Below, one piece after another: positions 6,801-63,972 of a stretch of 64,000 nucleotides of DNA. The translations under genes and the position numbers were made by a program. The DNA comes from Tritrichomonas musculus. Taxonomy: Eukaryota > Parabasalia > Tritrichomonadida > Tritrichomonadidae. Position 1 is the stretch's first letter, and each line of letters begins with the position of its first letter. The DNA lies in contig JAPFFF010000030.1 of the NCBI GenBank assembly GCA_039105265.1, positions 1,364,001-1,428,000 of the forward strand, in the 5' to 3' direction. The notes beneath the pieces were generated by a model. That model saw only the letters and a program-made list of their open reading frames with translations. It searched no databases and was not told the DNA's origin.

Positions 6801-6853
6801 ACAATTAATTTGATGATTTTATTTTAAAAAATCATTTTTTATTTTTGTTATAA

Positions 6854-7495
6854 ATGAGTCAACCAACCGGGCAGACACAAATTGAAACTGAAAATGAAGC
6901 CGAATTTGAACCGTTGAAAGACTTTGAAAATGATTATGAAATTCAAACAACTTTCCCTTATAACATCAGAAAGAAGAAAACAGGACGAATATTAGCTGAA
7001 GGTGAATACAGACAAAATGTTTATCCGTGTGTAAGCCTAAATAACAAAATATATTATAAACATATTCTTGTAGCAAAGCAATTCATTGAAAATCCTGATA
7101 ATCTGCCACAAGTCGACCATATCAGTCATGATAGGAGTGATTATCATTTATCTAATCTTCGATGGGTTTCACCGACAGAAAATCAACAAAATAAATCATC
7201 ACATCTAAGTATAAAATATGAGTTTGTTGATGATATACCTGATGAAGCTATGATTATTGATTTCTATGAAACAAAGACAGAAAGAAGAGAGTTTGAAGAA
7301 AACAAGTATTATTATTACTTTGATGAATCAAATAATGAAGACAAGTTTTATGCAAAGATTACTGATAATATTTATAAAATTCTTCATATCAATACAAATA
7401 AATCAGGTAATGAATTTGTTTTACTTCGTGATGTTGAAAATAAACCAGTCGGTGTATATATCAATCGATTTAAACATCAACATGATTTGATTTAA
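6854..7495 (+). CDS. HNH endonuclease (NUMOD4/HNH_3-like), Maverick
   Basis: A 213-residue protein. An N-terminal strand-rich segment (YEIQTTFPYNIRKK) resembles NUMOD4. The HNH core follows: KHILVAKQFI, then VDHISHDRSDYHLSNLRWVS and NKSS. The first His, the DH pair, Asp and Asn residues are all in place. The C-terminal domain (IPDEA, RxEFEENKYYYY, INRFKHQH) is conserved in the element 2 copy at 49679 and is not part of the usual HNH family. The gene lies 53 bases after the polymerase stop. Homing-type cutting is the family activity; a role in element spread is inference. Confidence 0.85.
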   Translation: MSQPTGQTQIETENEAEFEPLKDFENDYEIQTTFPYNIRKKKTGRILAEGEYRQNVYPCVSLNNKIYYKHILVAKQFIENPDNLPQVDHISHDRSDYHLSNLRWVSPTENQQNKSSHLSIKYEFVDDIPDEAMIIDFYETKTERREFEENKYYYYFDESNNEDKFYAKITDNIYKILHINTNKSGNEFVLLRDVENKPVGVYINRFKHQHDLI

Positions 7496-7559
7496 ATGAT
7501 GCATAAATATGTTTTATTTTTGTTATCATTGGTTTCATTCGATTGAAACACTAAAAATA

Positions 7560-7655
7560 ATAATAATCATTGAATGATTTTGATGACTGATACCTAAAAT
7601 ATAGGTCATTATTTCGATTTCGATTGAAGGTTAAAATTACCCCGGTTGATATCCC
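7560..7655 (+). repeat. Short dispersed repeat, copy 2
   Basis: Near-identical to 1660-1745, including GATGACTGATACCTAAAATA and GATTGAAGGTTAAAATTACC. It lies between the converging HNH gene (ends 7495) and the 354-residue gene (ends 7665), where a bidirectional 3' end signal would be expected. Confidence 0.65.
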
Positions 7656-7664
7656 TTTTCATTT

Positions 7665-24596: not shown

Positions 24597-25060
24597 ATTC
24601 TCGTTTTTAATGGAGATTTCTTGTAAAAAAATTATTTGGGAGACAAAACTATGTTTTTGAACTAGGTATTAAGATGAATATAATGGAAATATTAGGAGTG
24701 AGATAACCAAAACGTTCTTTGGTGTTCGTATCTCAACAATTTTCTTCTAATTCTGGTATTATTCTTGATAAAATTGATTTGTGAATAAGTGGATTGGTAA
24801 ATAAATCTGTTTCAATTGTTTATGGTTTAGAATCTTCTGAGAACGGAATTGAATTTTGTTTCTCTAAATTTCATTTATTTTTAAAGGAAAAATGGTATTT
24901 TTTCATCATATAGTTACGTTATAAATGACCGTTAAGTCACTTAAGATGAATTTCTTTTAATAAATGTAACCACAAAATTTTCATTAAAATTTTTAAACTT
25001 TTTGAAATAAAAAAGATAAACTGTTTTCTCTCAATTTTGAAAAAAATAAAATATAATTGA
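24597..25060. other. Spacer with decayed coding-like sequence
   Basis: The part around 24725-24900 reads through as QQFSSNSGIILDKIDL, a stop, then ISGLVNKSVSIVYGLES and ENGIEFCFSKFHLFLKEKW in one frame, like a relic I cannot name. A match to it lies at about 36178-36310 in the second duplicate. Confidence 0.35.
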
Positions 25061-35919: not shown

Positions 35920-38890
35920 TAAACGCATTTCAGATTGATAAAATTGAAGGGAAAAGTGAAATAATTAATATTTTATTAATAATCTCTCTTATATGATTTG
36001 AATTATCCTTTTTAATGGAGATTTCTTGTAAAAAAATTATTTGGGAGACAAAACTATGCTTTTGCCATAAATATTAAGATGAATTAATATATAAGTTTTC
36101 ATCCAATTTAATGAAATTAAAATTTGATGATATAATGAAAATATTACGAGTGAGATAATTGAAACGTTCCTTGATTTTCGTATCTCAACAATTTTCTTCT
36201 AATTCTGGTACGGTTCATGGTAAAATTAAATTGAGAATAGGTGGATCAATAAAATGAATCTGTTTCAAGTGTTTATGATTTAGAATCTTCAGAGAACGAA
36301 ATTGAACTCAATGAATAAATGTAACCACAAAATTTTCAAACTTTTTGAAATAAAAAAGATAAACTGATTTCTCTCAATTTTGTAAAAACTTAAAACATAA
36401 TTGAATGAAGGTTTGTGGATATAACAAATATTCCAATCTTGCAGAAGAATCAAACAAACAAACTTCAGGTGGAGCTCCAATCATCTGCCCTCCATGCGAC
36501 TCCCATCTCAACATTTCTTCACTTTTATCAATTTCAGCATGCGACGATCACACGATATGGATCACTAACGAAGGGCAAGGCTATGCAGTTGGTAACAATG
36601 AAGATGGGCGAATCCTTGGAACACATAAGAAAGAAGTTATCAAAGAATCCCAACGACTTGAACTGAAAGACAAGGAAGGTCGTCCTTGCCAACTTATTTC
36701 AGCTGTTTGTGGCGCTTATTACACTCTGTACCTTTTTTCTAGTTCCAGTTCAAAGAACAACCAGCTTGCATATGTTCATAAAGATCACGAAAGCGGCACT
36801 CCAGTTTTTGTGAACATAAATGGTCACAATCCTATTCATCTTTTTGGTGGCGGTTACACAGCAGCAGCAGTCGACACAGAAGGATCAATATTTTATATAA
36901 CAAGAGGAGACATGAAGGCAGGAAGAGAGAATATTGAAAAGTCAGTCCTTCCACAGAGTGAGAAGCCAGTCAGCATCGCCTGCTGCAGGTCATTCGTCAT
37001 TGCATCTGGCTCGAGTGGTCGAGTCTTCTGTGCAAATGTTCCATATTTAAGAGAGGCAGGTGGGAAATTGACATTTGAAATAGTGAAAGAACTTGAAGGA
37101 AAAGAAATCATCGAAGTGTCAGGCATATTTGAGCACTGTCTGGCAGTTTGTAAAGATGGGCGAGTCTTTGTCCGCGGATCAGATTTATTTGGCCGTCTGG
37201 GACTGGGAGGACGATCATCAGACAGCGAATTCACAGAAATTTCAGGACTGAAACACAAAATCATTTCAGCCTCAGCTGGCGGTGGTCATTCGCTTTTCAT
37301 GACATCAGAAGGGAAGGTCCTCGCGTGTGGACGTAACTATTATGGCCATCTCCTCACCACTGAACCAGGTTCCGATATTTCCACACCAGCTGAGACAACG
37401 ATCAGAGGCGGTGCTTCATTCTGCATTGCAGGAAGTGGTATTTCATTTGTTTTTGTTGGAACAGAACCGCCAGCAAACGCGCCAAACAGACGAATCAAAG
37501 AAAAAGTGACAGATGCGGCAAATGATGAAATTTTGAGACTGAAAGAAGAGAATGCATCACTCAAAGAAGAGAACACAAAATTGAGAGAAGAGAATGCGAT
37601 GCTTCGTCGTCAGCAGTCGGGCAGCAGTTCGAGTAACAAAAACGGTTTTTCCATTCTTGACAGGAGTACGATTGAGAGTCTAAAAGTGACACGCGAACTT
37701 GGATTTGGAGGGATGGGAAAAGTGTCAGAAGTTGTGAAGGAGGTGAAGTACGCGCTGAAGGAGATGAATGTGAGAGACGCGAGTGTTTCGCAGCAGCGTC
37801 GATTCATCGGCGAGTACGAGAAGCTGAGCATGCTCGAGCACCCGAACATCGTCCGCGCGTTTGGGATGTGCCTGAGCGACGCGGAGCACCCGCCGTCGAT
37901 CCTTCTCGAGCTTTGCGCTTGCGACCTTGCTTCTCTTCTGAGGAGCGGGAAGCAGGAGGAAGCTTCGATTGCGTTTATGGCGTACGAGATTGCGGAAGCG
38001 ATGCGCTACGTCCACAAGCGCGGCCTGATCCACCGCGACCTGAAGCCATCGAACATCCTGATCGGAAGCGACGGCGGGATCCGCGTGAGCGACTTCGGAA
38101 TTGCGACTCTTCAGTCGACGGACGATCAAAGCACGACATCAGTCGGCGGGACACAAAAGTTCATGGCGCCAGAATTTTTGAGGGAAGAAAAATACGACGA
38201 GAAAGTTGACGTTTACTCGTTCGGCGTTCTGCTTTTCTTCATTGTGAGCGGCGGCGAGATGCCGCGAATCAGCATCATCGACATCGGGAACGGGAAGAAG
38301 GCCCGAATTCCAAGCAGCTTCACCGACGTCTCGCGCAGAATCATCGACGCGTGCTGGAACTTTGATCCCAAGAAACGTCCGAGCTTTGAATCTATTTTGA
38401 AGGAACTCGATAAGAACGACTACAAAGTTGTTGATCTTTCAGATTCGGAAGTTCATGAAGTCCGTAACTCAGTCAGCGAACACAAAAAGAAACTTCCAAA
38501 GTATTGAATTGATTTTTAATTAACTTTACTAATAAACTTTTTTATTTTTTACTTTGTTTTTTTATGTTTTTTTAGACTTTTTTTTGTTTTTAAAACAAAC
38601 TTTTTGAATGATTTGATTGAACAGAGTTAGTCAAAAAAAATGAACTCAATCAAATCACTTGATTTTGATAAATTATATACTATAAAGAAAGCTGATCATT
38701 ATTTTCATGTTTTTGAGTCATGAAATTCATCAGAAGACGATAAAAATGCATTGAAAAAAGTTAAAAAAGACTTTTTGAGATAAAAAAATGATTGTAAAGT
38801 TCACTTCATTTTTTTCAAAAAACAATAAAAAGTGAGCTGCACATTAAAAGTCAAATATATGGAGTACATACGCATTATTTAATGATTGAT
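35920..38890 (+). repeat. Segmental duplication, copy 2
   Basis: Repeats the order of 24505-27995: an ankyrin-repeat relic at about 35930-36000, the GGAGATTTCTTG block, the RCC1-kinase gene, and the KKADHYFHVF relic near 38700. The region between is shorter than in copy 1. Confidence 0.8.
36405..38507 (+). CDS. RCC1-repeat protein kinase, copy 2 (700 aa)
   Basis: Same plan as the gene at 25061. The RCC1 propeller (about 1-360) is about 93% identical by eye to copy 1, with roughly 320 bases (36865-37190) identical at DNA level. The coiled coil (about 362-402) is followed by a distinct kinase domain (about 428-690): GFGGMGKV loop, [33 protein letters not shown] and KRPSFESI. Catalytic residues are intact. 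The kinase half is clearly divergent from copy 1. Propeller differences are mostly amino-acid changing. Both genes start in the same ATTGAATGAAGGTTTG context. Confidence 0.9.
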   Translation: MKVCGYNKYSNLAEESNKQTSGGAPIICPPCDSHLNISSLLSISACDDHTIWITNEGQGYAVGNNEDGRILGTHKKEVIKESQRLELKDKEGRPCQLISAVCGAYYTLYLFSSSSSKNNQLAYVHKDHESGTPVFVNINGHNPIHLFGGGYTAAAVDTEGSIFYITRGDMKAGRENIEKSVLPQSEKPVSIACCRSFVIASGSSGRVFCANVPYLREAGGKLTFEIVKELEGKEIIEVSGIFEHCLAVCKDGRVFVRGSDLFGRLGLGGRSSDSEFTEISGLKHKIISASAGGGHSLFMTSEGKVLACGRNYYGHLLTTEPGSDISTPAETTIRGGASFCIAGSGISFVFVGTEPPANAPNRRIKEKVTDAANDEILRLKEENASLKEENTKLREENAMLRRQQSGSSSSNKNGFSILDRSTIESLKVTRELGFGGMGKVSEVVKEVKYALKEMNVRDASVSQQRRFIGEYEKLSMLEHPNIVRAFGMCLSDAEHPPSILLELCACDLASLLRSGKQEEASIAFMAYEIAEAMRYVHKRGLIHRDLKPSNILIGSDGGIRVSDFGIATLQSTDDQSTTSVGGTQKFMAPEFLREEKYDEKVDVYSFGVLLFFIVSGGEMPRISIIDIGNGKKARIPSSFTDVSRRIIDACWNFDPKKRPSFESILKELDKNDYKVVDLSDSEVHEVRNSVSEHKKKLPKY

Positions 38891-39322: not shown

Positions 39323-40011
39323 ATGATGATAGAAAGCTACATAATTGGAGCATCTCACCGTATTAATCATCAATATAATTTCAATCTTAATGTTGGTTCA
39401 CTTATATCATATTCAATAAGATTGGATCACAGTGTTTATATCACAAAAGATCATCAAGCGCATGCTTTATGCAGCAATCAATATAGTAAAATGATTAGAA
39501 CTCTCCAAAGAATCAGAATTTGCTAATAACATCTATTTTGTTGGCGAGTGCGAACTGCTGTGCGCGCTGGACCACCCGAACATTGAGAAGACGCATGGCA
39601 TCTTCATGGGCGACGCTGATCGCCGTCCGTGCATGCTGCTGGAGTTTTGCGCGGGAAACCTCGAGACGGCCGTGCAGAAGAAAGCTCTGGGGAGCGTTGA
39701 ATCAGGTTTCTGTCTGTACCAGGTTGCGGAGGGCATGAAGTACGTCCACAGCCGAGGAATCATCCACCGCGACCTGAAGCCTTCGAACATCCTCTTTGGA
39801 AGGGACGGGATGATCAAGATCGGCGACTTCGGCATCGCTCGTCTGATGACGACCGAGGAGTAGATGACTATTGTTTCAGGAAAGCAGAAATCATCAAAGA
39901 GAAAGAATTCTACAACAAAAAAGTTGATGTTTACTCTTTTGGTGCTTTTTATTTCTTCGTTCTGAACAACACAGGCATCTGGAAGAACAAGATAGGCGAC
40001 ATCTTCAAATG
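39323..40011 (+). pseudogene. Chimeric RCC1-kinase pseudogene
   Basis: 39323-39526 encodes one RCC1 blade (VGSLISYSIRLDHSVYITKD). After about a dozen bases, 39539-39860 is nearly identical (a handful of differences) to the kinase domain of copy 1 at 26489-26810, from VGECELL to GIARLM. A TAG follows at 39861. The kinase remnant [19 protein letters not shown] then continues in another frame, much more diverged, to TGA near 40009. Most propeller blades, the ATP-binding loop and the activation segment are missing. The sharp change in similarity at 39860 suggests gene conversion with copy 1. Confidence 0.8.
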
Positions 40012-40239
40012 AAAAAAAATAATGTAATACAAGAATATTGCAGTATAAAAAATATTTTCCGAGATATTTGTATTTTTTCTTTTAAAAAGAAGAATTTTAA
40101 AATCTATGTTTTTATAAAATGGAGAGCAAAGTTGGAGCAATTATATACATATATATATATAAAAGTGATTAATATAGCACTAAAAATCTTTCATATTACA
40201 TATATCATGAAAAAAAAAAAAAAATATTGCAAATTAACT

Positions 40240-44483: not shown

Positions 44484-44714
44484 AAAACGTATTTTTTTGT
44501 TGATTATTAAATACTTTAATGTGGTGGAAACCTAAGCTAAAATAATTTTGAAAGATATTGTCAAATAAAAATAATGTTAAAGTTAGAAAAGATAAGCACA
44601 AATGTATGCTATATATATGTTCTACTTTTAGATTGAATTTTGAATAACAAATTTGAATTAGTAGTGCTAGACTGTGCTAGAGATACTACATATTTTTTCA
44701 CCCCTAGCGCAAGT

Positions 44715-44975
44715 TTAACAGCTTCTGGAAGTTCCCCAAGAGATCTTTGGTGATGATGATGATCCATTGAAAGAACAACCAGTTACTAAGTTTGTCGAAG
44801 GTAAAGAAGAAGTGATATCATTTCCTGAAGCACGAGACCTTACATATATTCGATTGTAAAAATTTGATGAGATTTCTGAACGATTATTCCTTATAGAGTG
44901 TGAAATTAGACGATGAAACAACGATTTAGCATCTTACTGATGGAGAGCAAGTTGTTATCGATACCAAACTAAACT
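44715..44975 (+). pseudogene. Decayed gene fragment
   Basis: Plus-strand frame: QEIFGDDDDPLKEQPVTKFV, EGKEEVISFPEARDLTYIRL, stop, KFDEISERLFLIECEIRR, stop, then in other frames DGEQVVIDTKLNCLPKTRP. Composition is protein-like despite the stops. Family not recognised. Confidence 0.4.
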
Positions 44976-44980
44976 GCCTT

Positions 44981-45077
44981 CCAAAAACCAGACCACATAT
45001 TTTTTTTTGAAAGCAATTCAAAATATTATTTTTTATTTTGATAAGATTATTTTATTTTTGAATGGTCTGGTATTTGG
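44981..45077. repeat. 97-bp inverted-repeat element
   Basis: CCAAAAACCAGACCA (44981-44995) pairs with TGGTCTGGTATTTGG (45063-45077) with one mismatch, around an A/T-rich middle. A small hairpin or MITE-like unit. Confidence 0.55.
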
Positions 45078-45194
45078 ACCTTTTGAAAAATCGAATATAT
45101 ATTTAAAAATTTTAAGCAATTTTTTTTAAAATATTCAATCATGATTGAGAAGATAATAATAAAATTAATTCAAAAATAAAATTGTGTTTAAGAA

Positions 45195-45475
45195 TTAATA
45201 AGGATTAATTGTTTCATCATCGGCTGTATTTTCTTCTTCTTCGCCTTCTTCCTCTTCTTCATCCTCGTCTTCTAATTCAGCATCTTCGTCAATTTCATCT
45301 TCAAATTCTTCGTTAAAGGCATTGTTATATTCAATAATATCCATAAGTTCGAATGGCATTGCAATTTCTAAAGCTTTATTTTTGACTATGGTATGTCAAT
45401 TCTTTTTGCTACTTGCATCCATCGATGTGAGTAGTAATGGTCTGTGCGACGTGACCACCTATTAACTACTGGAAT
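45195..45475 (-). pseudogene. Gene remnant with acidic tail at the Maverick edge
   Basis: On the minus strand a frame enters from the repeat at 45475 (AGQGIPVVNRWSRRTDHYYS then HRWMQVAKRIDIP), breaks with a stop and frame change near 45395, and continues ALEIAMPFELMDIIEYNNAF into a Glu/Asp run ending DDETINPY and TAA at 45195. The basic Trp/Arg/His-rich part is transposase-like in feel but not assignable. Its frame reads a short way into the Maverick repeat. Confidence 0.4.
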
Positions 45476-45622
45476 ACCTTGCCCAGCATACCTTGCAAGC
45501 CAACAAGCTCAGGTATAAAAAATCAGGTATGTTTACTTGTTATTGTTTTTAGTCGTGTTTTCATTACCAACCTATACTTTTGAATAATTTTCTGGAACCC
45601 TTTATCAACTCATTATGTTTTA
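45475..45622 (+). repeat. 148-bp direct repeat, copy 1 (5' flank of first cassette)
   Basis: Begins TACCTTGCCCAGCATACCTT and ends near CTCATTATGTTTT. It is about 93% identical by eye to 46427-46574. It lies 63 bases upstream of the first gene of the element. Confidence 0.85.
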
Positions 45623-45664
45623 ATACGCTAGATAGATTTGCAAAATTAATTTTATTTTTATTTT

Positions 45665-45671
45665 TCATTTT
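45665..45671 (+). promoter_or_regulatory. Initiator-like TCATTTT
   Basis: TCATTTT fits the trichomonad initiator and lies 14 bases before the ATG at 45686. Confidence 0.4.
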
Positions 45672-45685
45672 ATACAGTACTAAAC

Positions 45686-46378
45686 ATGACCACACAAACT
45701 ACTATTAGCACCATTATTTCTTCAAATCAACAAATAGATGGTAATTACACAAATGAACAAATTAATGAATATTTTCAAGAGCACAATTGTACTATACTAC
45801 GATTTCCTAAGAACGGCTATTCAGAAAATACTTTAACATTCTATCGTAATGACGACCCTAGTAGAATAATGTACACAACACTAGGAAGATTTGTAAGAAA
45901 TCCAAATAAATTATACCCAAAAGATTATGGTTATATGCGCAAAAATAACATAATACTAACAGAGACAAAAGAACAAAGATTAGAAAAACAAAGACAAGCA
46001 TATGAAAACGAATTGCAAGAATCTATGAAACAAGAAGATTGTATACTGACTTCCAAATATGAAGGTTCTGGTAAACATGTACATTATACATATAACAATT
46101 TTGATTACAGAGTAACACCAGCGAATTGGAAAGCAGGAGCAAGACCACATAAAGCAAAATGCATAAGATATACTCACGAACATATAGCACAGTTGTTTGC
46201 ACAAGAAGGCTGTAAACTATTATCACAATACCAGAATCAAAAATCAAAACTTACTTATGAATATAAAGGACGAACCTTCCAAGTTGTTTATAATGATTGG
46301 AAATTCTATCATAGTCGTCCACATTTAGGACAAGTTCATACTTACTTCACAGAGGAACTTGATAGAGAATTTAATTAA
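45686..46378 (+). CDS. Three-repeat DNA-binding-like accessory protein (230 aa)
   Basis: Three diverged repeats of about 55 residues: (i) HNCTILRFPKNG ... LTFYRNDDP; (ii) EDCILTSKYEGSGKHVHYTY ... YRVTPANWKAGARPHK; (iii) EGCKLLSQYQNQKSKLTYEY ... FQVVYNDWKFYHSRPH. The pattern (G/D-C-x-L-L-S-x-Y, L-T-Y-E-Y, W-x-x-G-x-R-P) resembles the DUF723-type repeats beside phage HNH and restriction nucleases, without their zinc cysteines. A basic Gln/Lys/Arg linker joins units i and ii. Nucleic-acid binding is inference. Flanked by repeats shared with the next gene. Confidence 0.6.
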   Translation: MTTQTTISTIISSNQQIDGNYTNEQINEYFQEHNCTILRFPKNGYSENTLTFYRNDDPSRIMYTTLGRFVRNPNKLYPKDYGYMRKNNIILTETKEQRLEKQRQAYENELQESMKQEDCILTSKYEGSGKHVHYTYNNFDYRVTPANWKAGARPHKAKCIRYTHEHIAQLFAQEGCKLLSQYQNQKSKLTYEYKGRTFQVVYNDWKFYHSRPHLGQVHTYFTEELDREFN

Positions 46379-46404
46379 AAAAGCAATTATTATTTTTGTA
46401 TTAT
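46370..46404 (+). repeat. Shared 3' flank, copy 1
   Basis: TTTAATTAAAAAAGCAATTA then TTATTTTTGTATT spans the stop codon of the 230-residue gene. It recurs with one change at 47049-47083 over the stop of the next gene, though in a different reading frame. Confidence 0.75.
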
Positions 46405-46426
46405 GACCATCTAATAATTTTACTCG

Positions 46427-46574
46427 TACCTTGCCCAGCATACCTTGCAAGCCAACAAGCTCAGGTATAAAAAATCAGGTATGTGTACTTGTTATTGTTT
46501 TTACCCGTGTTTCCATTACTAACCTATACATTTGAATAATTTTCTGGAACCCTTTATCAACTCATTATGTTTTG
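46427..46574 (+). repeat. 148-bp direct repeat, copy 2 (5' flank of second cassette)
   Basis: Same block as 45475-45622, at exactly 952 bases distance, about 80 bases upstream of the 132-residue gene. Confidence 0.85.
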
Positions 46575-46654
46575 ATAGGATAACTAAGTTTTTACAATTT
46601 TTCAAAAATTATATTTTTTAAAAATTTTTTTATTTTTTATTTCCACTACATATA

Positions 46655-47053
46655 ATGGAAGCCTTTGCTAATTATGCTGCTAAACAACTCCGTACATATA
46701 AAACACCTATGTACGACCTTTTTGCTGACATTTGTGATAAAGTCATTGATGGTGACCGTGATGCTATTGATGTTGTTGAACCCTTTATTATAGACGCACA
46801 AATGGATATATTCAGAGAGCAGAATCACTTATACATATCTTTTCATGATGAAAATGCTGCTTTTCGTGAGTATGGAGAAATATTTGATTACTATATTGAT
46901 GAGCTTACTGGTGATTACGATGATTATGGTATGCCATATCACTTTCCAAAGAAGTTTTACGATGAGGTATACGAATTCTTCCAATACACTGATGAGGGCA
47001 AGAAATGCATGAATGAATTCAATCCAAACACTGATAAGGTACAGGAAATTTAA
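46655..47053 (+). CDS. Acidic accessory protein (132 aa), unknown
   Basis: Rich in Asp/Glu/Tyr/Phe, with an estimated strong negative charge. The N-terminus (YAAKQLRTYKTPMYDLFADI) is helical; the C-terminus has EYGEIFDYYIDELTGDYDDY. No known motif. Small acidic proteins of mobile elements are sometimes DNA mimics or inhibitors, but nothing here proves that. It shares both flanks with the unrelated 230-residue gene upstream. Confidence 0.6.
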   Translation: MEAFANYAAKQLRTYKTPMYDLFADICDKVIDGDRDAIDVVEPFIIDAQMDIFREQNHLYISFHDENAAFREYGEIFDYYIDELTGDYDDYGMPYHFPKKFYDEVYEFFQYTDEGKKCMNEFNPNTDKVQEI

Positions 47054-47083
47054 TTAAAAAAGCGATTATTATTTTTGTATTTA
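47049..47083 (+). repeat. Shared 3' flank, copy 2
   Basis: Matches 46370-46404 with a single-base difference in its core. The TAA of the 132-residue gene lies in it. Confidence 0.75.
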
Positions 47084-47107
47084 TTTTTTATTCACATTTC
47101 ACAAAAC

Positions 47108-47557
47108 ATGAAAGCACCAAAGGTCTATGATTATATAAACACCCTCATATCTGTATTACCGGAGCCAGAAAAGTATCGTAATTGTGATTTCTCAATATTA
47201 TGTGAAAAGTTTCCTCTAATGATGAATACAAACAGTTTTCGTGCAAAAGTATTGTACATAAGTCTTAAGAACACTATTAGTGAAACTATGACGATTTATC
47301 CTGATAAGATCACAGAAATAGGATTAGAGAACATAACAATTACCACAAACTTACGAAGAAGGCTTTCGATGAAGACACAAGAATTCTTCATAAATGGTAA
47401 TACAGAACCACAAGAATACAAAGGAAATGATTATTATAATTACAGTTTAGAGAGAACAAGTATGTCTACAAGAAACAAAATTAAAGAACTAAGACAAAAA
47501 TATAATGTACCTGAACCAGAATTATTTGTAGGAAAGCATCAAGATTTAATTATATAA
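47108..47557 (+). CDS. Uncharacterised Maverick protein (149 aa)
   Basis: Starts at ATG 47108; upstream codons in the same frame lack a Met. TCACATTTCAC just before the start resembles an initiator. A mixed helix/strand protein, ending NKIKELRQKYNVPEPELFVG and KHQDLII. It overlaps the convergent ATPase gene by 8 bases. No family recognised. Confidence 0.6.
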   Translation: MKAPKVYDYINTLISVLPEPEKYRNCDFSILCEKFPLMMNTNSFRAKVLYISLKNTISETMTIYPDKITEIGLENITITTNLRRRLSMKTQEFFINGNTEPQEYKGNDYYNYSLERTSMSTRNKIKELRQKYNVPEPELFVGKHQDLII

Positions 47558-48407
47558 AGCTAATATTACTTGTACGAACATTGATCATAATAAAGTCATG
47601 ATTCCTCATCTTCATGTAATAATGCCATAATTCTTCAAATTCAACTGGCATTGGAACTTGTTGATAAATATATTGCATCTTTTGGCGAGAGAACCCAGAG
47701 AAGATGAAGAAAGTTGTTGCATTATTTTTGTAGTCAGTTGGTATTGACTTGAAGAATTGTACATTTATGTAAACTATTGAATGTTTATGACGAAGTTGTG
47801 TAATGTAGTTGGTAAAATATGATGATTTCAATAACTTACTCCTAACAAAGTCTTCGCAAAGAATGATAGTGTTCAATGGCTGATTTGGTTTACCGAGTTT
47901 GTTAATACGCAGGAACTCAAACATTTGTTGAAGTTTGTCATTATCTATTGTTATTCGTGGAGCTGTACTATACCGATCATACAATTCTTTCCACAAATCA
48001 AGTTCTTTCAAATATTTTTCAGCATTAGCATCAGAAACAACATGAATAGGTAATTGAATCAATTCTTGCTGTGCTTCAAAAGTAGAGTCATTAATACTAC
48101 CATTCTTGCTGATATAAACTATTAAATGAAAGCTGTTTTCTTTAGGTAAACGAGATATTTGAATGATGTCACGTAGCATTACATGTGTCTTTCCTTTACC
48201 TTGAGGACCAACCAGAATATTGAGAGAATTATACCATGAATAGATATCAACAGCAATTGGCCGTATTGATTCAGACATTATTTTTCCTTCATTACGTTTA
48301 TATGCAGCAGACATAGCAGCATCAATATTAAAAGGCTGTGGCATCATTATTACATCATCTTCATAATCACTAGAATCAGAATGATAATAGAATTGTGTTG
48401 GTTTCAT
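47550..48407 (-). CDS. Maverick packaging ATPase (FtsK/HerA type, 285 aa)
   Basis: Walker A is GPQGKGKT (residues 67-74), after LNILV. The Walker B strand is NTIILCEDF (about 179-187), with Glu/Asp for catalysis. IVYISKNGSINDSTF between them is conserved with the element 1 copy. The N-terminus is acidic and Ser-rich. Its C-terminal half, missing from element 1 by window truncation, contains LRHKHSIVYINVQFFKSIPT, matching the sensor segment of A32-like viral ATPases. The length is usual for Maverick ATPases. DNA packaging is the family role. Confidence 0.9.
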   Translation of the reverse strand: MKPTQFYYHSDSSDYEDDVIMMPQPFNIDAAMSAAYKRNEGKIMSESIRPIAVDIYSWYNSLNILVGPQGKGKTHVMLRDIIQISRLPKENSFHLIVYISKNGSINDSTFEAQQELIQLPIHVVSDANAEKYLKELDLWKELYDRYSTAPRITIDNDKLQQMFEFLRINKLGKPNQPLNTIILCEDFVRSKLLKSSYFTNYITQLRHKHSIVYINVQFFKSIPTDYKNNATTFFIFSGFSRQKMQYIYQQVPMPVEFEELWHYYMKMRNHDFIMINVRTSNISFI

Positions 48408-48432
48408 TTCATTCTCATCAGAATTGTATTAC

Positions 48433-48552
48433 TTATGAGTATATTCTTGCTCTCATTTCTTCAGTGAGCTTTGGTTCATATTCATAAGTAAATCCAATAA
48501 TTATTACACTTAGTTCAACAACAATAACACCTAATAGTAACTCAATTATCAT
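48433..48552 (-). CDS. Small Maverick membrane peptide (39 aa)
   Basis: ATG 48552, TAA 48433. One membrane span (IIELLLGVIVVELSVIIIGF) is followed by the charged tail EPKLTEEMRARIYS. Counterpart of 621-752 in element 1, at the same place beside the ATPase. Confidence 0.7.
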   Translation of the reverse strand: MIIELLLGVIVVELSVIIIGFTYEYEPKLTEEMRARIYS

Positions 48553-49678: not shown

Positions 49679-50281
49679 ATGACAGAAATATCAGAATTTG
49701 TTACACTTGTCAATCATGAGGACTATGAAATATTGACAACATATCCACATACCATTAGAAGGAAAGACAATCATCATGTATGTAGTGAAACATTAAGAAA
49801 AAGTGATGGTTATTTAATAGTTACTCTTAATAGAAAAACATTTCTAAAGCACCGGTTAGTTGCTTCACAATTCATTGATAATCCAAACAACTTATCTTTT
49901 GTTGATCATATCAATCATGATAGAACTGATAATAGAATAGAGAACATTAGGTGGGTATCAAATTCTACTAACAATTTCAATAAATCATCTAATAAAGGAA
50001 TCCAATACGAATTTGTTGATGATATACCAGATGAAGCAATAAAGGTATTGTTTTATAACACTCGTACAGAGCGTCATGAATTTGAAGAAAACAAATATTA
50101 TTACTATCATAATGAGAATGATGAAGAGGTATTTTATAGCAAAATGACTGATACACTTTATAGAATTATGCATATCAATACTACTAAGAAGAATACGCGA
50201 TTCATCGCAATGAGAGACAGTAATAATAAACAAGTTAGTGTATGCATCAATCGTTTCAAGCACCAGCATTCTCTTGACTAA
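49679..50281 (+). CDS. HNH endonuclease (NUMOD4/HNH_3-like), Maverick copy 2
   Basis: A 200-residue homologue of 6854-7495. YEILTTYPHTIRRK, then KHRLVASQFI, the core VDHINHDRTDNRIENIRWVS and NKSSN. The C-terminal extension (VDDIPDEAI, RTERHEFEENKYYYYH, INRFKHQHSLD) is even better conserved than the HNH core. It lies 30 bases after the small basic gene, far from the polymerase, unlike in element 1. Catalytic His and Asn are intact. Confidence 0.85.
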   Translation: MTEISEFVTLVNHEDYEILTTYPHTIRRKDNHHVCSETLRKSDGYLIVTLNRKTFLKHRLVASQFIDNPNNLSFVDHINHDRTDNRIENIRWVSNSTNNFNKSSNKGIQYEFVDDIPDEAIKVLFYNTRTERHEFEENKYYYYHNENDEEVFYSKMTDTLYRIMHINTTKKNTRFIAMRDSNNKQVSVCINRFKHQHSLD

Positions 50282-50972: not shown

Positions 50973-52979
50973 ATGTTATATCGCAACGAAAGAGCACATA
51001 ATTACAAAATAGAAGCAGGTAATGTACTTGATACTTTCAATCAGATGAGATCAATGATAAATAAAAATGATGGTACACGCTCATTCTCATTCAGAACTGT
51101 TGACTGTCATGACCAACCAGCCCCATTTCATCAAGGCCAATATAGTCAAATTTCTCTTACACACCCTGATCATTTCATTAGTGATGTTGATAAAGGATTC
51201 CTTACCTTCCATGTCAAACTTGATTTACAGCTCAATACTGACCTCAGCAAACTCCAACAGATTGATGATCCAAACAATTTCTATAAGCTCTTTGTTGGAC
51301 TCAAATCTTCTAACCAATTGTTTGATAGATTGGAAATTCTTCATAATAATGTCAATGTTGGATATCAACAAAATGAATGCGTACGAGAAGGTTTCCTCTA
51401 TTCTGCTGTGAAACCAGAAACAGAAAAGAAGCGAAGAAGATTTGTTCACAGTCTCTGGGAAAATGTAGCTTCATACTCACAAACAGTAGCGGGAACATAT
51501 GTCAATCTCAACAATTTCAAAGAAAATGGTAAAACTTCTGTTGATTTCGATCTTAATGTTCCTTTTGATGATCTTCTTGCACTGCAGGCATTTGATCTCT
51601 TCCCTAATGGAATCATTGGTGATCTCTCTATAAGATTCCAAGTAACTCCAGCAGGTTTGGTTTGGGCAGCTATAGATCCTTACACTGTTGCAGAGACAAA
51701 AGCTTTCCTCGAAGATAATGAAAGTGTGAGCACAGAGGAACTTGATAAACTTAAACAAATTACGGTTCACGGGCATCTCAAACATCAATTTACACAAATT
51801 GGAAATGAAGCAGTGATTCCTGGTCCTGGCAAAGAACCTGTTCCTGATCCTTCACCTTCTCCTGATCCTGATCCTACCCCTACTCCTGTCAAGTATAAGA
51901 TTCAATATAGAATAGGAGAGCAATGGGATAATGATGATGGAAGTACTGGTTACACTGATATTCTTACAGATTTGGAATTCTATTTCAGCTATACTACAGA
52001 GGAATTTGCTGAGTTTGGTCTTCAACCTTCTGCTAGTGATGAAGAAATTTGTGTTCACAATCCTGCTGTAACACTACCACCATTAAATCATGCTGACAAA
52101 AATGGACGTTATTACGCATGGCAAATTGTAAAGACCCCTGTTGTTAGTGCTCATCAAACATTACAAGCTTTGCACGAAGCTAAAGCTCAAGTACTGAAAG
52201 AAACTTATTCCTCACAGCCTGCTACCCTCACTGTAAACAGAATGACAATTACGTTATGCAAGTCCAATATGCAAGGTTTTGGAGTTTGTGAAGCTACAAG
52301 GCACGGTATAGAAGAAATACTGTCAAAGGGTGTTATAATTCCATCACAGAAAGTAGATTATCATTCATTTCCAATAGCACCAGCAGCAAACGGTATCAAG
52401 TCTACTCTCAATATTCCTCTTATAAATGTTACTACACTTTCTATCATGTTTCCTAAACATCATAATGATCTTACAGTTTTTGAGAATCCTGTTTATTCAA
52501 ATTGCTATCTAAATATTGGTGGTAAGAATTTTCCTGATGAAAATGTTTCTACAATTGGAGCAAGGTTCTTTGAAAATCAACTTACTGCAGGAGACCTTGA
52601 TGCGATTACTCTTCAATGCACAAAGGAGTTCGAAGACAGTATGACAATGCCTAAGAATGATGCTAATGGTGTTCGCTACAATAATACTCTTAGTGATGCC
52701 AGTAGTTTTGTCTTCAATATTCAAGCTGAAAGATCTTCTGCAGGTTATTGCTTCGACGGAATTGACGGAGGTTTTGGCAACGTACAGATTCAAGTACAAG
52801 GACAACCCATCTATTCTGGTGCAAATGACACTTACTATAATGTTATCGAACCTTCAGGGAACGTAGTCCATCCATGTCCAACACAATTATGGATTACAAG
52901 AGATTCTTACTTCTTAATGAATCTCGATGGACTTGTTTATGTTGATGATCAAAGTCCTGAAGGTAGTCAAGTAGAGTAA
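50973..52979 (+). CDS. Major capsid protein (double jelly-roll), Maverick, with inserted domain
   Basis: A 668-residue protein. The N-terminal jelly roll is suggested by SFSFRTVDCHDQPAPF, FLTFHVKLDLQLN and a DRLEILHNNVNVGY strand, with a second beta-rich half ending WITRDSYFLMNLDGLVYVDD. The pattern fits Polinton-type capsid proteins. At about residues 285-312 a Pro/Asp/Ser/Thr linker (PDPSPSPDPDPTPTP) leads into an extra beta-rich segment (about 313-440) that looks like an insertion between the two jelly rolls. No damage seen. Confidence 0.75.
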   Translation: MLYRNERAHNYKIEAGNVLDTFNQMRSMINKNDGTRSFSFRTVDCHDQPAPFHQGQYSQISLTHPDHFISDVDKGFLTFHVKLDLQLNTDLSKLQQIDDPNNFYKLFVGLKSSNQLFDRLEILHNNVNVGYQQNECVREGFLYSAVKPETEKKRRRFVHSLWENVASYSQTVAGTYVNLNNFKENGKTSVDFDLNVPFDDLLALQAFDLFPNGIIGDLSIRFQVTPAGLVWAAIDPYTVAETKAFLEDNESVSTEELDKLKQITVHGHLKHQFTQIGNEAVIPGPGKEPVPDPSPSPDPDPTPTPVKYKIQYRIGEQWDNDDGSTGYTDILTDLEFYFSYTTEEFAEFGLQPSASDEEICVHNPAVTLPPLNHADKNGRYYAWQIVKTPVVSAHQTLQALHEAKAQVLKETYSSQPATLTVNRMTITLCKSNMQGFGVCEATRHGIEEILSKGVIIPSQKVDYHSFPIAPAANGIKSTLNIPLINVTTLSIMFPKHHNDLTVFENPVYSNCYLNIGGKNFPDENVSTIGARFFENQLTAGDLDAITLQCTKEFEDSMTMPKNDANGVRYNNTLSDASSFVFNIQAERSSAGYCFDGIDGGFGNVQIQVQGQPIYSGANDTYYNVIEPSGNVVHPCPTQLWITRDSYFLMNLDGLVYVDDQSPEGSQVE

Positions 52980-58499: not shown

Positions 58500-60263
58500 A
58501 TGTTCACAATAGAGCAAGCAGGTAGCATCAAGAAAGTGAATACTATAGACGAACTTATCATTGATTATATAAGAAAGTATTCATGTCAAGGTGGTTTGCA
58601 AGGAGTGAATACTGAAGAAATCAAAAAAATGCTGGAGCCGTATGCACTTTTGACAGACTTATTTGAATTTCTTAAGACTGAAGAATTTAATAAAGAAATA
58701 ATGAAATATGTATCAAATGAGGAACTTGAGAATGAATATCGTAAGAAAAATGATCTTACTTATGAAAATACAACACTCTTAACTACGACTGCAGCAGATG
58801 AAAGATATAACAGAAAAGATGATATTCCTACTGTAGTAAATTCACAGCAGTATGATGAAAGTTCTACCACTAATGATGTTGCTGTACCTACTGTAAAATT
58901 AGTAGAAGAACTAACAAAATATAATTTGTTTAAGTATGATGCAGAAAAGAATGAAATTGTGATGACAAACACAGATAATAATAAATATGTGTCTTTAGAA
59001 TCACATTATGGTAGACCTGCTTTGAAGATTATAAATTATGATTCTTCTTATAATGAAGCTAGTTTTGGAGCTACACCCTGTGGTTTTTTAATAAGTGATA
59101 TAAATGATAATATTATTCTTCATTACGATAAAGATGACAAACAAACTTTATTAGCAAATCCCTGTAATCTTGAGGATCAGAAACCTTTTCTTACAGAAGT
59201 CACTGTAAATGACCTATATAACAGGAAAGATTGTACTCTAGCTATAAAGGCTGTGTTTGAAGACGGGAGTTCTACCTCATTCACTATTACACATAATGTA
59301 AGCACAAATGACAAAGAAGTATATGTAAAAATAGAAGATACATCTGACTATGTAGCAAATTATGTTGCTTATGAGAGTGATAAAGTTGGCTATATCAAGT
59401 GTAATGTAGATAATGAAACTACAATCTTGTTTGTAAAAGCTGTAACAGAAAATGTTTTTACTTATGGAGATTATACTTATGATGTTAGTAATGGTAGAAT
59501 CACTACTCTAGAAACAGTAGCGAAGTTAACAAAGTTTGTTCCAAGTATAGTATACAATGATAAGGTTACTAAGTTTTGTAAAATTCAGCTTAACGCTAAT
59601 TGTCCTTCAAGTATCTCTGTTGCTACTGATTTCAATGGTAGAGATATAACTTCTTTGTATTCATTCGGAAATTGTTCTAAAACTGTAATTCATATAGATT
59701 TCACTAACTTTGATATTTCTAATGTTACAATTTGCTCAGATTTTGCTAATAAATGTAATAACCTAGAGACTATAAAATTTGATAAGAGATATAGTAATAA
59801 TTTATGTAAGTATTTCGATTGGATGTTTATAGAATGCCGTAAACTAAAGGAAGTTGATTTATCTATGTTCTATTCGAGGAATGTGGAAAATATTGGAAGT
59901 ATATTTATGGCTTGTATAGTTTTAGAAGTTATAGATATTTCAAACTTAATCATAACAGCCATGTCTCAGTCTTGTACCGGTATGTTTTCGGATTGCCGTA
60001 ACCTAAAAATATTGTATATACATGAAAGTATGCAGGATCTTATTTCTTACGTTTTTGAATACAAAGGTAACGTAAAATTAGTGAAATCAACTTATAAAGG
60101 TAGAGAATGTTATATTGCAGAAAATCATCTTGAAGAAGTACGTAATAATGATTGTGCTCTGAAAACTGATATTCCTACTGTAGTAAATTCACAACAATAT
60201 GACGAAAGTTCTACCACAAATGATGTTGCTGTGCCTACTGTAAAATTAGTAGAGAAGAACTAA
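58500..60263 (+). CDS. Maverick fibre-like protein, first part, frameshifted at 60252
   Basis: The frame starts at 58500. It contains two copies of a module beginning DDIPTVVNSQQYDESSTTND (near 58818) and its partner (near 60170). Between them, about residues 342-513, lies a DUF285/BspA-like leucine-rich segment (FANKCNNLETIKF; FIECRKLKEVDLSMF; MFSDCRNLKILYI). Compared with the first module, the second copy has two extra bases (GA at about 60252-60253), which give a TAA at 60261. The protein would be about 940 residues if intact. Receptor binding is inference. Confidence 0.75.
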   Translation: MFTIEQAGSIKKVNTIDELIIDYIRKYSCQGGLQGVNTEEIKKMLEPYALLTDLFEFLKTEEFNKEIMKYVSNEELENEYRKKNDLTYENTTLLTTTAADERYNRKDDIPTVVNSQQYDESSTTNDVAVPTVKLVEELTKYNLFKYDAEKNEIVMTNTDNNKYVSLESHYGRPALKIINYDSSYNEASFGATPCGFLISDINDNIILHYDKDDKQTLLANPCNLEDQKPFLTEVTVNDLYNRKDCTLAIKAVFEDGSSTSFTITHNVSTNDKEVYVKIEDTSDYVANYVAYESDKVGYIKCNVDNETTILFVKAVTENVFTYGDYTYDVSNGRITTLETVAKLTKFVPSIVYNDKVTKFCKIQLNANCPSSISVATDFNGRDITSLYSFGNCSKTVIHIDFTNFDISNVTICSDFANKCNNLETIKFDKRYSNNLCKYFDWMFIECRKLKEVDLSMFYSRNVENIGSIFMACIVLEVIDISNLIITAMSQSCTGMFSDCRNLKILYIHESMQDLISYVFEYKGNVKLVKSTYKGRECYIAENHLEEVRNNDCALKTDIPTVVNSQQYDESSTTNDVAVPTVKLVEKN

Positions 60264-61321
60264 CAAAAGATAATTTGTTTGCGTATGATGAAGTAAATAA
60301 TTCTATAGTAATGGCGAACACCGATAATAGTAAACATGTGTCTTTAGAATCAAATTATGGAGATCCTGCTTTGAAGATTATAAATTATGGTTCTTCTTAT
60401 AATGAAGTTAATTTTGGTCTCACACATAGCACTTTTATAATTTCTGATGATTCTAATAAAGATTTCTTTAGATATGATAAATATGATAAGAAAACTTATC
60501 TTCAAAATCCATGTAATATTAATTTCGAACCTCTACTTACAGAAGCTGCTGCAAATGAAAAATATGTAAAAACTACTGGGAATTCTACTATAGAAGGTAC
60601 AATAAATATACACCCACAGTATAATACTGTTATTAATGCTTGTTATGAAAATAATAAGGGTAAATATATAGTTTTTGGTGAAACTGAGGAGAAAAAAGCA
60701 GAATTCTCATACAGATATAATACAGAAGGAAGTTGTGGCCAGTTTAATATAAATGTTGATAATGGACAACTTTTAAATGTTACTAGAAAAAGTTTTCAAG
60801 AAACACATACTAGACTATATAGTAATTTAAATATTAGTGGTAATTTATCTGTATCAGGAACAATAACAGGAACAATAGCAAACAGCAATACTATTACTCA
60901 CTACGCTCCTATAGAAACTTCTGTAAATTCTATTTCTGACTTCATAGTTGGTGCTCCTGTGTATCTTACTGGAAATGTGTACAAGAGAAAGAATGATACT
61001 TGGGAGGAATCTACTGCAGAGGACACCACAGATTGTATTTGCTCAGTGAAAACACAAGGAACATGGAAAGAGTATATAGGAATTTGCACAAAAATAGATA
61101 CCAAGAATAATTCAGTAACATTCGCTTCCCATGGCGATTACCTTGTGCGTGTCACAGATTCATCATGTTATTGTACAGGTGACGAAGTTTTTATAGATGA
61201 TGACAATAAACTAAAGATTCTTGCTGGTGCTACTGCAGTAACTGCAAAAATAAGAAGGATGACAGTAGGAATTATTACTAGTATCATAAACACAAATATG
61301 CTTGCAGTTTTTAAGGCATAA
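60254..61321 (+). CDS. Maverick fibre-like protein, second part (frameshift continuation)
   Basis: Continues the fibre in another frame, without an ATG at its start: EELTKDNLFAYDEV ... LESNYGDPALKIINYGSSY repeats the first module. Beta-rich repeats follow (NLNISGNLSVSGTITGTI, typical of tail-fibre stems). The C-terminal 145 residues match the end of the element 1 fibre (THYAPIETSVNSISDF, TTDCICSVK, ITFASHGDY-like, RRMTVGIITSII, LAVFKA). Confidence 0.75.
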   Translation, partial: EELTKDNLFAYDEVNNSIVMANTDNSKHVSLESNYGDPALKIINYGSSYNEVNFGLTHSTFIISDDSNKDFFRYDKYDKKTYLQNPCNINFEPLLTEAAANEKYVKTTGNSTIEGTINIHPQYNTVINACYENNKGKYIVFGETEEKKAEFSYRYNTEGSCGQFNINVDNGQLLNVTRKSFQETHTRLYSNLNISGNLSVSGTITGTIANSNTITHYAPIETSVNSISDFIVGAPVYLTGNVYKRKNDTWEESTAEDTTDCICSVKTQGTWKEYIGICTKIDTKNNSVTFASHGDYLVRVTDSSCYCTGDEVFIDDDNKLKILAGATAVTAKIRRMTVGIITSIINTNMLAVFKA

Positions 61322-61665: not shown

Positions 61666-63972
61666 TTAATAAGAATAATCTTTTGCAGTGAGTCCAGTAA
61701 TGAAAGGTAAACAAGCTTGATTCTCTAGTACAATCATTTTTGTGTGTGAACCAGTTAAAGCATTTTTGTTAACAGTAACCTTTGACATAATATTGTTCTT
61801 CATTTGTAAGTTAATGTTCTTACCAACTTTAATAGTTTTTTCCATCAAAACTTCTTTATAATCATTACGTACAATATTGTTCTTCTTCAATGATACTCCT
61901 TTTAATTTCATAGCTTTTACTGTTTCATCATTATTCCATATTGTGTAGCATTTTGGTGCAAGTGCTATCATATGGTCTCCTACTTTCTCTATTGCACACC
62001 CCAAAAGTTTCTTTTCATCAGCAATATCATGAAGTTGTGGATTGGGAAAGAACTTATAAACATGCTTGCACCAAAATGATTCATCTTTGATAATATTGTT
62101 GAACAACTGTGATGGGGTTTCATCTTTGTTACCTGAAATGGCAAAGTAAGCAGAATCGGTGTCTCCTTCTATAAAATGAAGTCTATTCATATCCAAGCAC
62201 CTATTCATAAAATCATAGTAGAAGGTACAGTACCAGAATTTAGCATTATCTAATGTCCAAAATGATTCTTGTAAGCAGGTAGTGCAATGATAAGTTTTTG
62301 GTTGTTGTTGAATAATAAAGAGATCATCATTTAATTGAGCACCATTCACGTACGTTTGAGAAATAATATACTGATAAGCTTTGTTAGTATCACATATTTT
62401 TACTTTACAAAACTTCTCAGTGTTCATTCCATCGTAACCATACGAACCATTCATACTAATCTTGTAAAACTTTTCATTACCATTTGACTTCCCAGCAATA
62501 ATATCTTGTCGTTTCTTCATGAATGTAGTAACAAATTCACGAAATCCTGTATGAGCTTCATAAATTGAGACACTCTTTACATCCTCTAGCACTAAGCCAT
62601 GATCAAGTAAGAACCATAAATAGTAATTGCTAAATGTCATATATTCTCCATAAGTGTCAAGTAACATAGTAAGTTTGCGTTCTTCTTTGTCTAATGAGGC
62701 TAGTTTATGCTCTTGAAGATAAGAGTACATATAACTTCCTATTACTGATTCCTCATTTTTGATGTTGATGTTTCTGAAGACTGGAGGAAAATTAATGAAG
62801 TAATTGATCTTGCTTGCTGGACATACTAACTTTACTTTTGCTATGAATAAGTGTTTTGGATTTGGTTGGAATCTTGTTTTGCTAGTTATAATGTCTATTG
62901 CCTTTTGTTTTGATTGGTTGTCTTTAACATCTATTCTGCGTACGAAACTACCTGGCATGTACATAATTCCACCATGATATTTATTGAAATCATGTTTTGT
63001 AGAAGAAAACGATGAAGGGTACAAACTATTAAAATCAACTCCAACAACATGTGTCATTATATTTGGAGTGTCGTACGAAAGAACTTTATTATTGATTGCA
63101 TCGTACCTAAACTTATTAATATGTGTTTCACCTTTAATATTATATCTGTGCTGTACGTTTGATAGTCCTCCTGTTATGTTATTTCGTAAACTATAGTATT
63201 CTTGTTCATCGTTAATGAGAGTAGGTAAATGATTTAGTTTACAAAACTTCTTCAACTGAATTCTTAATGAGGTTATTTTTGGGTCATCACGTTTACGGAG
63301 CTTATTACATTCTACACAAGCGAGTTTGCAATTGCTCAATTCATGTCCAATATCGTTATCAATTCTATCAAGCGTTGGTTTGTTTACGTTTGTAAAATGT
63401 TCCTTACATAAATGGCAACAACCATTATTGTACATTTTCATAAATTCATCAAAATCAGAAACTGATATACATTTGTCAAGATTTCGCATGTTATTACTAT
63501 GGGTTTGATTATATTTTTGATCTTGCTTGTAATAACAGTCACATTTATATTTCCACCATTTGATTGTTGGTTTGAAGGAATTTTCTTTGTTAATTATGTC
63601 GTATTCAGTGGTCGGATCAAAATCTTTATAAGCAAGAGCGTACTTGATACATGCTGAACACTTTGATAATGATAAGTTTGATATCATGTCTACATTATAT
63701 TCAGCGTTCATAGCAATAAGATTGTCAATTGGCTTAATCATCATTTCTACATCATTATCATTATAAGCTAGTAAGTAATCCCATCTATTTTTGTAGTTCT
63801 TGCAATCATTTACATATTCTGCATAATCTTCCTTAGATAATGGGTTTCGTTGGTTCAAATAACTATAGAAGTCATCATAAGCAAATGGTTCTGTTACAGA
63901 TAAAACTTCATTGTAATTATCACTATTGATAGCCTCATACGGAAAGACTCCCTTGTTACTGTTGGTTTCACC
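61666..63972 (-). CDS. Protein-primed DNA polymerase B, Maverick copy 2 (5' part absent)
   Basis: Similar to the element 1 polymerase from TNSxKGVFPYEAINSDNYNE onward. Exo III YNDND, an embedded HNH motif (CHLCKEHF ... LDRIDNDIGHELSNC ... CVECN), motif A DFNSLYPSS, motif B KISMNGSYGYDG and motif C GDTDSAYFA are all present. Upstream of about 63972 the match stops and an in-frame TGA lies at 63973-63975, so Exo I, Exo II and the N-terminus are missing here. No ATG marks a new start. A break, or poor sequence at the window end, are the options. Confidence 0.85.
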   Translation of the reverse strand, partial: GETNSNKGVFPYEAINSDNYNEVLSVTEPFAYDDFYSYLNQRNPLSKEDYAEYVNDCKNYKNRWDYLLAYNDNDVEMMIKPIDNLIAMNAEYNVDMISNLSLSKCSACIKYALAYKDFDPTTEYDIINKENSFKPTIKWWKYKCDCYYKQDQKYNQTHSNNMRNLDKCISVSDFDEFMKMYNNGCCHLCKEHFTNVNKPTLDRIDNDIGHELSNCKLACVECNKLRKRDDPKITSLRIQLKKFCKLNHLPTLINDEQEYYSLRNNITGGLSNVQHRYNIKGETHINKFRYDAINNKVLSYDTPNIMTHVVGVDFNSLYPSSFSSTKHDFNKYHGGIMYMPGSFVRRIDVKDNQSKQKAIDIITSKTRFQPNPKHLFIAKVKLVCPASKINYFINFPPVFRNINIKNEESVIGSYMYSYLQEHKLASLDKEERKLTMLLDTYGEYMTFSNYYLWFLLDHGLVLEDVKSVSIYEAHTGFREFVTTFMKKRQDIIAGKSNGNEKFYKISMNGSYGYDGMNTEKFCKVKICDTNKAYQYIISQTYVNGAQLNDDLFIIQQQPKTYHCTTCLQESFWTLDNAKFWYCTFYYDFMNRCLDMNRLHFIEGDTDSAYFAISGNKDETPSQLFNNIIKDESFWCKHVYKFFPNPQLHDIADEKKLLGCAIEKVGDHMIALAPKCYTIWNNDETVKAMKLKGVSLKKNNIVRNDYKEVLMEKTIKVGKNINLQMKNNIMSKVTVNKNALTGSHTKMIVLENQACLPFITGLTAKDYSY

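Follow-up and report, generated by a model that had tools for sequence, protein, structure and literature searches.

How do two neighbouring genes that appear unrelated come to lie between the same upstream and downstream sequences? The question is raised by a stretch of 64,000 nucleotides (nt) in a 193-Mb Tritrichomonas musculus genome of 746 contigs (C30:1364001-1428000, hereafter the window), in which a Maverick-like element carries, close to its left end, gene A, encoding a basic protein of 230 amino acids (aa), and gene B, encoding an acidic one of 132 aa. The original prediction had taken these for gene cassettes of a Maverick, swapped as modules at the edge of the element. The locus is best explained as a cargo bay of exchangeable single-gene cassettes within the terminal inverted repeat (TIR), a variant of the recombination known among Maverick-like viruses; we give a probability of roughly three in four to the reading that the cassettes are moved by homologous recombination and that the outer ends of an element are copied onto one another.

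The duplicated flanks that had been described, a 148-bp block and a 35-base tract, were both borne out. The block, here extended to 173 nt (45475-45647), is present again 952 bases away at 46427-46599, with 91% identity over its full length and 95% over the first 151 nt; as it has 40 scored matches among 94 candidates in the window's own genome, chance is ruled out. The 35-nt tract at 46368-46402 recurs with one mismatch at 47047-47081, and spans the stop codons of both A (46376-46378) and B (47051-47053) at unlike offsets, hence in different reading frames; it is read as a 3'-end signal. Both block copies, both genes and both tracts are held within the left TIR arm, to which the right arm (L051) is identical over 1653 nt, the TIR ending one base past the second tract. 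Homology among the copies starts sharply at 45430, or at most 5 nt earlier, with AGTAGTAATGGTCTG. The arm is arranged as follows (ORF, open reading frame; Inr, initiator; T and T2 are two variants of the terminus):

45424..45429, no strand: left copy of the 6-bp target-site duplication GATGTG, the second copy lying beside the right end at C30:1456676.
45430..47082, plus strand: left TIR arm with cassettes A then B.
45430..45474, plus strand: element terminus, variant T (AGTAGTAATGGTCTGTGCGACG...), recognised from 85 terminus-pattern matches and the outer limit of homology.
45475..45647, plus strand: subterminal block, copy 1, from the repeat and the genome matches.
45648..45685, plus strand: T-rich spacer with an Inr-like TCATTTT before the ATG of A, read directly.
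45686..46378, plus strand: cassette gene A, with three predicted modules, from ORF, model and substitution ratios.
46368..46402, plus strand: 35-nt tract, copy 1, containing the A stop codon and TAAA, from the repeat comparison.
46403..46426, plus strand: start of the second cassette, matching nt 22-45 of terminus variant T2, the first 21 nt being absent.
46427..46599, plus strand: subterminal block, copy 2, from the repeat comparison.
46655..47053, plus strand: cassette gene B, its product predicted to be mostly helical, from ORF and model.
47047..47081, plus strand: 35-nt tract, copy 2, from the repeat and arm comparisons, with the inner limit of the TIR 1 nt further on.

Mavericks have TIRs that start 5'-AG and target-site duplications of 5-6 bp. 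The termini here begin 5'-AGTAGT, and an exact 6-bp target duplication was found in 17 of 17 fetched element pairs, and the assignment to a Maverick-like element is supported. The copy in the window extends from 45430 to C30:1456676, a length of 47 kb, and probably holds a nested insertion, since 15 of 25 adjacent pairs of plus and minus termini span 20.3-23.0 kb. A 19-nt terminus pattern, AGTAGTAATGGNCTGTNCG, with two free positions, has 85 matches in the genome (45 forward, 40 reverse), and none when the pattern is reversed. The element edge of the original prediction is, more precisely, a TIR, so that a cassette is usually present at both ends, and the 5' block is subterminal DNA.

The first gene inside these 85 termini is B in 65 cases, A in six, A followed by B, as in the window, in six and neither in eight, as tallied from the coordinates of genome matches to the terminus pattern, A and B, with 40 of the ends fetched at 4 kb. 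The flanks are thus kept and the cargo differs, as had been proposed, and other copies do not always carry the same gene pair. The 25 adjacent pairs comprise 16 with B at both ends, two with AB at both, two A/B, one B/A, one AB/A, two with no gene and B, and one with B and no gene; among the 17 examined for target duplications, four have unlike genes at their two ends and one (L040/L041) has a gene at one end only. Within the 40 fetched ends, A and B are each found both with and without the left-type core, marked by a 149-aa gene, behind them. One A end (C29, L050) carries a truncated A of 151 aa, and 78 of the 79 close full-length B copies in the genome lack an internal stop, the other having one.

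Thirty-six of these 79 B copies share one score and identity, on contigs C74, C85, C99, C101, C191 and others, and four pairs measure exactly 20,910 bp, two of these elements standing approximately 30 kb apart on C74; this looks like an array of a host unit containing a Maverick. Shared flanks were found also for an AB end on C419, which has that of the right end of the window element, and for an A end on C352, which has that of one on C17.

Upstream of the genes, the flanks of 43 cassettes (from 39 of the 40 fetched ends, the window and three inner units) are mosaics, in which a T or T2 terminus is followed by a block of A-type, B-type or mixed sequence, a spacer of A- or B-type, and then the gene. 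All four combinations of terminus variant and spacer type occur, which points to recombination or conversion; none of the 43 combined T2 with gene A, and T with B-type block bases was seen only in L038 and L039. Breakpoints fall at the terminus, inside the block or in the spacer, depending on the copy, and this variation favours homologous recombination over a site-specific process of the integron type. In the comparisons read, exchanges lie between the T-rich sequence, from about 90 nt before to 10 nt after the start codon, and the tract around the stop codon. Available passages of PMC4693282 describe an Inr of the form TCA+1Py(T/A) in Trichomonas promoters and TAAA as a putative polyadenylation signal. 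As the spacer before A contains TCATTTT and the tract contains TAAA, a cassette may be viewed as a single ORF set between start and end signals that stay in place.

Within an element, the two ends are strikingly similar. Over the first 196 nt, 16 of the 17 elements (L040/L041 was not used) have seven within-element mismatches in total, compared with a mean of 154 for random pairing, and none of 20,000 shuffles was as low. Over the whole TIR, the median difference between the two ends of a B/B element is 0% (n = 7), as against 4% between elements (n = 318), on the basis of 26 of the 30 B ends. In nine of the 12 pairs with like cargo the match begins at the terminus and runs 1 nt beyond the tract; it stops at the tract end in L038/L039 and inside the tract in L052/L053 and L054/L055. 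The three A/B pairs match only over the terminus and block or spacer, and then again in the tract; their outer 196 nt have one, zero and zero mismatches, with an A-type terminus and block at both ends despite the unlike genes. Because the two ends of an element agree over the outermost 196 nt even when their genes are different, the simplest reading is that the ends have been homogenised, the outer end of one arm having been copied onto the other until homology stops, probably during replication.

Each end would accordingly be laid out as terminus, subterminal block, T-rich promoter, one ORF (sometimes two or none), stop and 3'-end tract, and core. Cassettes would pass between elements by homologous recombination, with the outer crossover in the block and T-rich spacer and the inner one in the short stop and 3'-end tract; the resulting mosaics are observed directly. 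The outermost DNA of one end would then be copied onto the other as far as homology reaches, leaving both termini alike, an identity that is observed, and usually doubling the cargo. With a linear genome and a protein-primed polymerase, such copying is expected through annealed end repeats, and may have taken place during replication of this kind. The replication model draws on this expectation and on a passage about endogenous mavirus-like elements (EMALEs) in the available part of PMC8547959. The tandem pair of the window would have arisen when an A cassette joined the outside of a B end from which the first 21 nt were already missing. All AB ends share this junction, of the A tract followed by T2 from nucleotide 22 (nt 22-45 matched at 100% inside L025, L026, L042 and L051), hence the stacking of A and B probably arose once and then spread. 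Selection maintains the cassette proteins, as shown for A by its substitution ratios and less strongly for B.

Three points limit this account. The end counts overstate independence, many of the B ends being array copies; the three A/B elements are too few for a pairing test of their own, their single mismatch being the lowest of six possible pairings but reached by two of them; and selection for whole ORFs would give the same boundaries, so that a dedicated seam is not proven.

Other Maverick types exhibit the same pattern. Relatives of A across the genome (150 scored of 313 candidates) extend down to 28% identity, some over short stretches, and 102 candidates gave 100 matches to B; a number of both stand in plus/minus pairs approximately 21 kb apart. 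At ten places read, the sizeable gene that comes first on the inner side of an apparent AGTAGT terminus is A-type in L063, L064, L065, L067, L068 and L069, and B-type (B') in L070, with no clear terminus within the stretch read in L066, L071 and L072. A more general terminus pattern occurs 156 times in the genome, and its reversed form never; 13 ends were read from among those listed. Six (L073, L074, L076, L077, L081 and L082) have no cassette, a terminus and a block of 73-74% similarity being directly followed by the 149-aa core gene (82%). One element has a gene D at both ends (L079 and L080, ORFs of 144 and 239 aa), one end has a gene C (L083), and four (L075, L078, L084 and L085) have neither A, B nor the core gene.

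Kept flanks around unlike cargo recur in these types. L063, with A, and L075, with neither A nor B, are 97.7% identical over 396 bp of outer flank and 99.4% over 525 bp of inner flank, whilst L083, with C, and L070, with B', share 86.7% over 240 bp on the 5' side and 96.6% over 553 bp on the 3' side. One stretch of C7, the exact termini of which were not found by the terminus pattern, carries B' and C at its opposite ends, in flanks 98.6% (222 nt) and 98.1% (54 nt) identical. There are six matches to C in the genome, and two C elements carry a further ORF, E, at their other ends (read in L088, to which L089 is 99.7% alike). The outer 239 nt of this end are 95-96% identical to those of L083, and a 33-nt tract is 97% identical. 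Since E resembles B' (E-value 1e-5) and C weakly resembles E (E-value 0.004), B, B', E and perhaps C form one fast-diverging acidic family, with A separate.

At L055, a Maverick of another type has inserted in the end of a B element, with a full second terminus approximately 45 nt inside the tract and approximately 745 nt from the element terminus. Its A-type gene matches the A of the window at 91% over the final 222 nt and at 77% over a stretch before them, a hint of recombination within the gene.

The exchange and end matching could instead have come about by gene conversion between copies integrated in the host genome, not during replication of a free element. Related copies are numerous, with the A relatives above and 91 scored of 1753 candidates for the polymerase, and conversion leaves target duplications intact, as they are in all 17 pairs; however, the two ends of one element, 17-95 kb apart, are far more alike than the ends of other elements, and conversion among dispersed copies should show no preference for the same element, unless distance plays a part. 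We regard this alternative as possible but doubtful. Capture of cassettes at a fixed recombination site, the integron-like mechanism that had been suggested, would account for single ORFs with their own 3' tract differing between copies as units. The comparison of copies does not support it: the breakpoints vary along flanks that are long homologous stretches, as in homologous recombination, and the inverted repeats listed for 44500-48500, which are AT-rich and 71-90% complementary, include no structure common to both cassette boundaries. The likeness to integrons is functional only, and such capture is very improbable.

Nested insertion of one Maverick end beside another would also produce a double cassette, and does occur, L055 having the full second terminus of another Maverick type; but the inner unit of the AB ends lacks the first 21 nt of the terminus and directly abuts the tract, at both ends of two elements, which leaves this explanation scarcely more credible than integron-like capture. 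The least probable of all is that one gene was duplicated in tandem together with its flanks and that the two copies then diverged. The 91-95% similarity of the flanks would suit it, yet A and B resemble each other neither in sequence nor in predicted fold, other elements have the one gene without the other, the homologues of each are found in separate Maverick types, and the inner unit starts with the other terminus variant. Given the single-cassette copies and the unlike proteins, it was rejected.

By sequence and predicted structure, the two cassette proteins do not appear to be diverged paralogues. Comparison of the family alignments of A and B with hhalign gave a probability of 0.2%, the best BLASTP E-value was 0.33 and the predicted folds are unlike, in agreement with the earlier remark that they look unrelated. 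The ratio of non-synonymous to synonymous substitution rates (dN/dS) is 0.11-0.12 in six comparisons of A with L063, of the group at 92%, and 0.39-0.56 against the distant A' of L055; the corresponding ratio of proportions (pN/pS), pooled over nine distinct A sequences, is 0.34. By these sequence comparisons A is under purifying selection. Pooled pN/pS for B is 0.30 over 24 distinct sequences, and purifying selection is less clear, as there are only 24 changes in two-state codons (8 synonymous, 16 non-synonymous).

The model of A (mean predicted local distance difference test score, pLDDT, 84; predicted template modelling score, pTM, 0.46) is built of three helix-strand-hairpin-helix repeats, the split into three modules being our own division. 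A Foldseek search of viral models gave 60 matches at E <= 0.001, the best at 4.7e-9 with probability 1.00, with low global template modelling scores. Among the best 50 of these, 15 are named as homing, restriction or HNH nucleases or as treble-clef or zinc-ribbon proteins, and four as DUF2726 or CapR proteins, with eight uncharacterised and the remaining 23 unnamed. A PDB search yielded no chain at E <= 0.001, and no nuclease family exceeded the cut-off in Pfam, NCBIfam or PHROGs, libraries that miss the modules too. A is most likely a DNA-binding repeat array without a recognised nuclease; the fold match suggests that it may perhaps serve at element ends or against rival elements. For B, the best of five models has a mean pLDDT of 81 and the others 46-62; the protein is predicted to be mostly helical, with a net charge of -18, and a structural search found no relative; as a small acidic helical protein, it could, at a guess, be a DNA mimic or antagonist. 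In a large protein set, every organism name given for relatives of A and B is T. musculus, the others being nameless.

B-type proteins diverge fast inside little-changed flanks. It is conceivable, though we consider it unlikely, that the TIR is a bay devoted to cargo, present in two copies, through which elements exchange weapons for use against one another, A-type proteins binding subterminal DNA of rivals or of their own element and B-type proteins acting as counter-factors or DNA mimics. Were this so, the matching of ends would double the dose of every winning cassette and let it spread fast.

Integrons carry single-ORF gene cassettes at a fixed recombination site. The present ORFs are likewise gained and lost singly, but with homologous flanks, varied breakpoints and no fixed site. 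Protein A resembles in predicted fold the DNA-binding repeat arrays of homing or restriction endonucleases from phages and giant viruses, but has no recognised nuclease domain or family match over the cut-off. The elements share TIRs, capsid-, ATPase- and polymerase-like ORFs and high copy number with the trichomonad Maverick/Polinton elements as described in the available part of PMC10120064; swapped protein genes inside the TIR, found here, do not feature in that part, and its main text lacks the words recombination, cargo and accessory. The EMALEs of Cafeteria, in the available passages of PMC8547959, have TIRs of 0.2-2.3 kb and include truncated elements whose TIRs 'must have regenerated'; there, modules or core genes are replaced, whereas here single ORFs are exchanged within the TIR and the outer ends homogenised. 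Mosaic bacteriophages with boundary sequences, in the accessible parts of PMC2327257, PMC3945230 and others, also exchange cargo between kept flanks by homologous or homeologous recombination; in the present case the exchange is in inverted repeats, the outer ends match and the hosts are eukaryotes. Titles and the starts of abstracts revealed no published description of TIR gene cassettes in trichomonad Mavericks, which does not prove that none exists. An estimated third of the Trichomonas vaginalis genome consists of Mavericks, according to the available part of PMC10120064, and in our judgement little is known of the roles of their accessory genes or of their routes of gene exchange. The locus is a natural experiment: sites in similar flanks may be filled or empty, single or double, and some elements have unlike cargo at their ends. 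It makes testable both the copying of ends onto each other in replication, as expected for a virus with protein-primed linear DNA, and the role of TIR genes as weapons or tools of the elements.

Behind the left arm, the window contains the following genes of the element:

47108..47557, plus strand: core gene of 149 aa, the first one, immediately inward of the left TIR; in the cassette-free ends of other Maverick types it stands directly behind terminus and block.
47550..48407, minus strand: putative packaging ATPase, with the Walker A sequence GPQGKGKT read directly and no family match over the cut-off.
49679..50281, plus strand: HNH endonuclease gene (Pfam HNH_3, E-value 1.4e-8, over the cut-off).
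50973..52979, plus strand: putative major capsid protein, 69% to an ORF in element end L041.
61666..63744, minus strand: putative family-B DNA polymerase ORF, with SLYPS and DTDS read directly.

Among the ATPase-, HNH-, capsid- and polymerase-like ORFs, only that of the HNH type has a family match over the cut-off. The ORF at 50973..52979, presumably the major capsid protein from its style of sequence, had no PDB or NCBIfam match over the cut-off, and that at 61666-63744, the SLYPS and DTDS of which we take to be family-B polymerase motifs, had none in Pfam. None of the 91 scored of 1753 candidates for PF03175 in the genome lies inside the element, nor does any of the 150 scored of 797 genome matches to the rve integrase, a list that is a lower bound. 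At 58500-61321, two neighbouring ORFs, of 587 and 336 aa, have repeats in common, over 92 nt at 92% identity and over 268 nt at 75%, from which it appears that other genes of the element besides the cassettes may duplicate too.

Remains of another Maverick are probable at 1-8729, where 1-264 is 70% like 47869-48132, 4440-4898 is an inverted repeat (74%) of 63508-63966 and an HNH gene lies at 6854-7495; an A-family gene (44%) stands just before the window at C30:1362240-1362863. Elsewhere in the window, genes for an RCC1-repeat protein kinase are duplicated approximately 11 kb apart (25035-27199 and 36379-38507), with a third, partial copy at 39535-40017, and 12466-12909 is a tandem array with a 36-base period.
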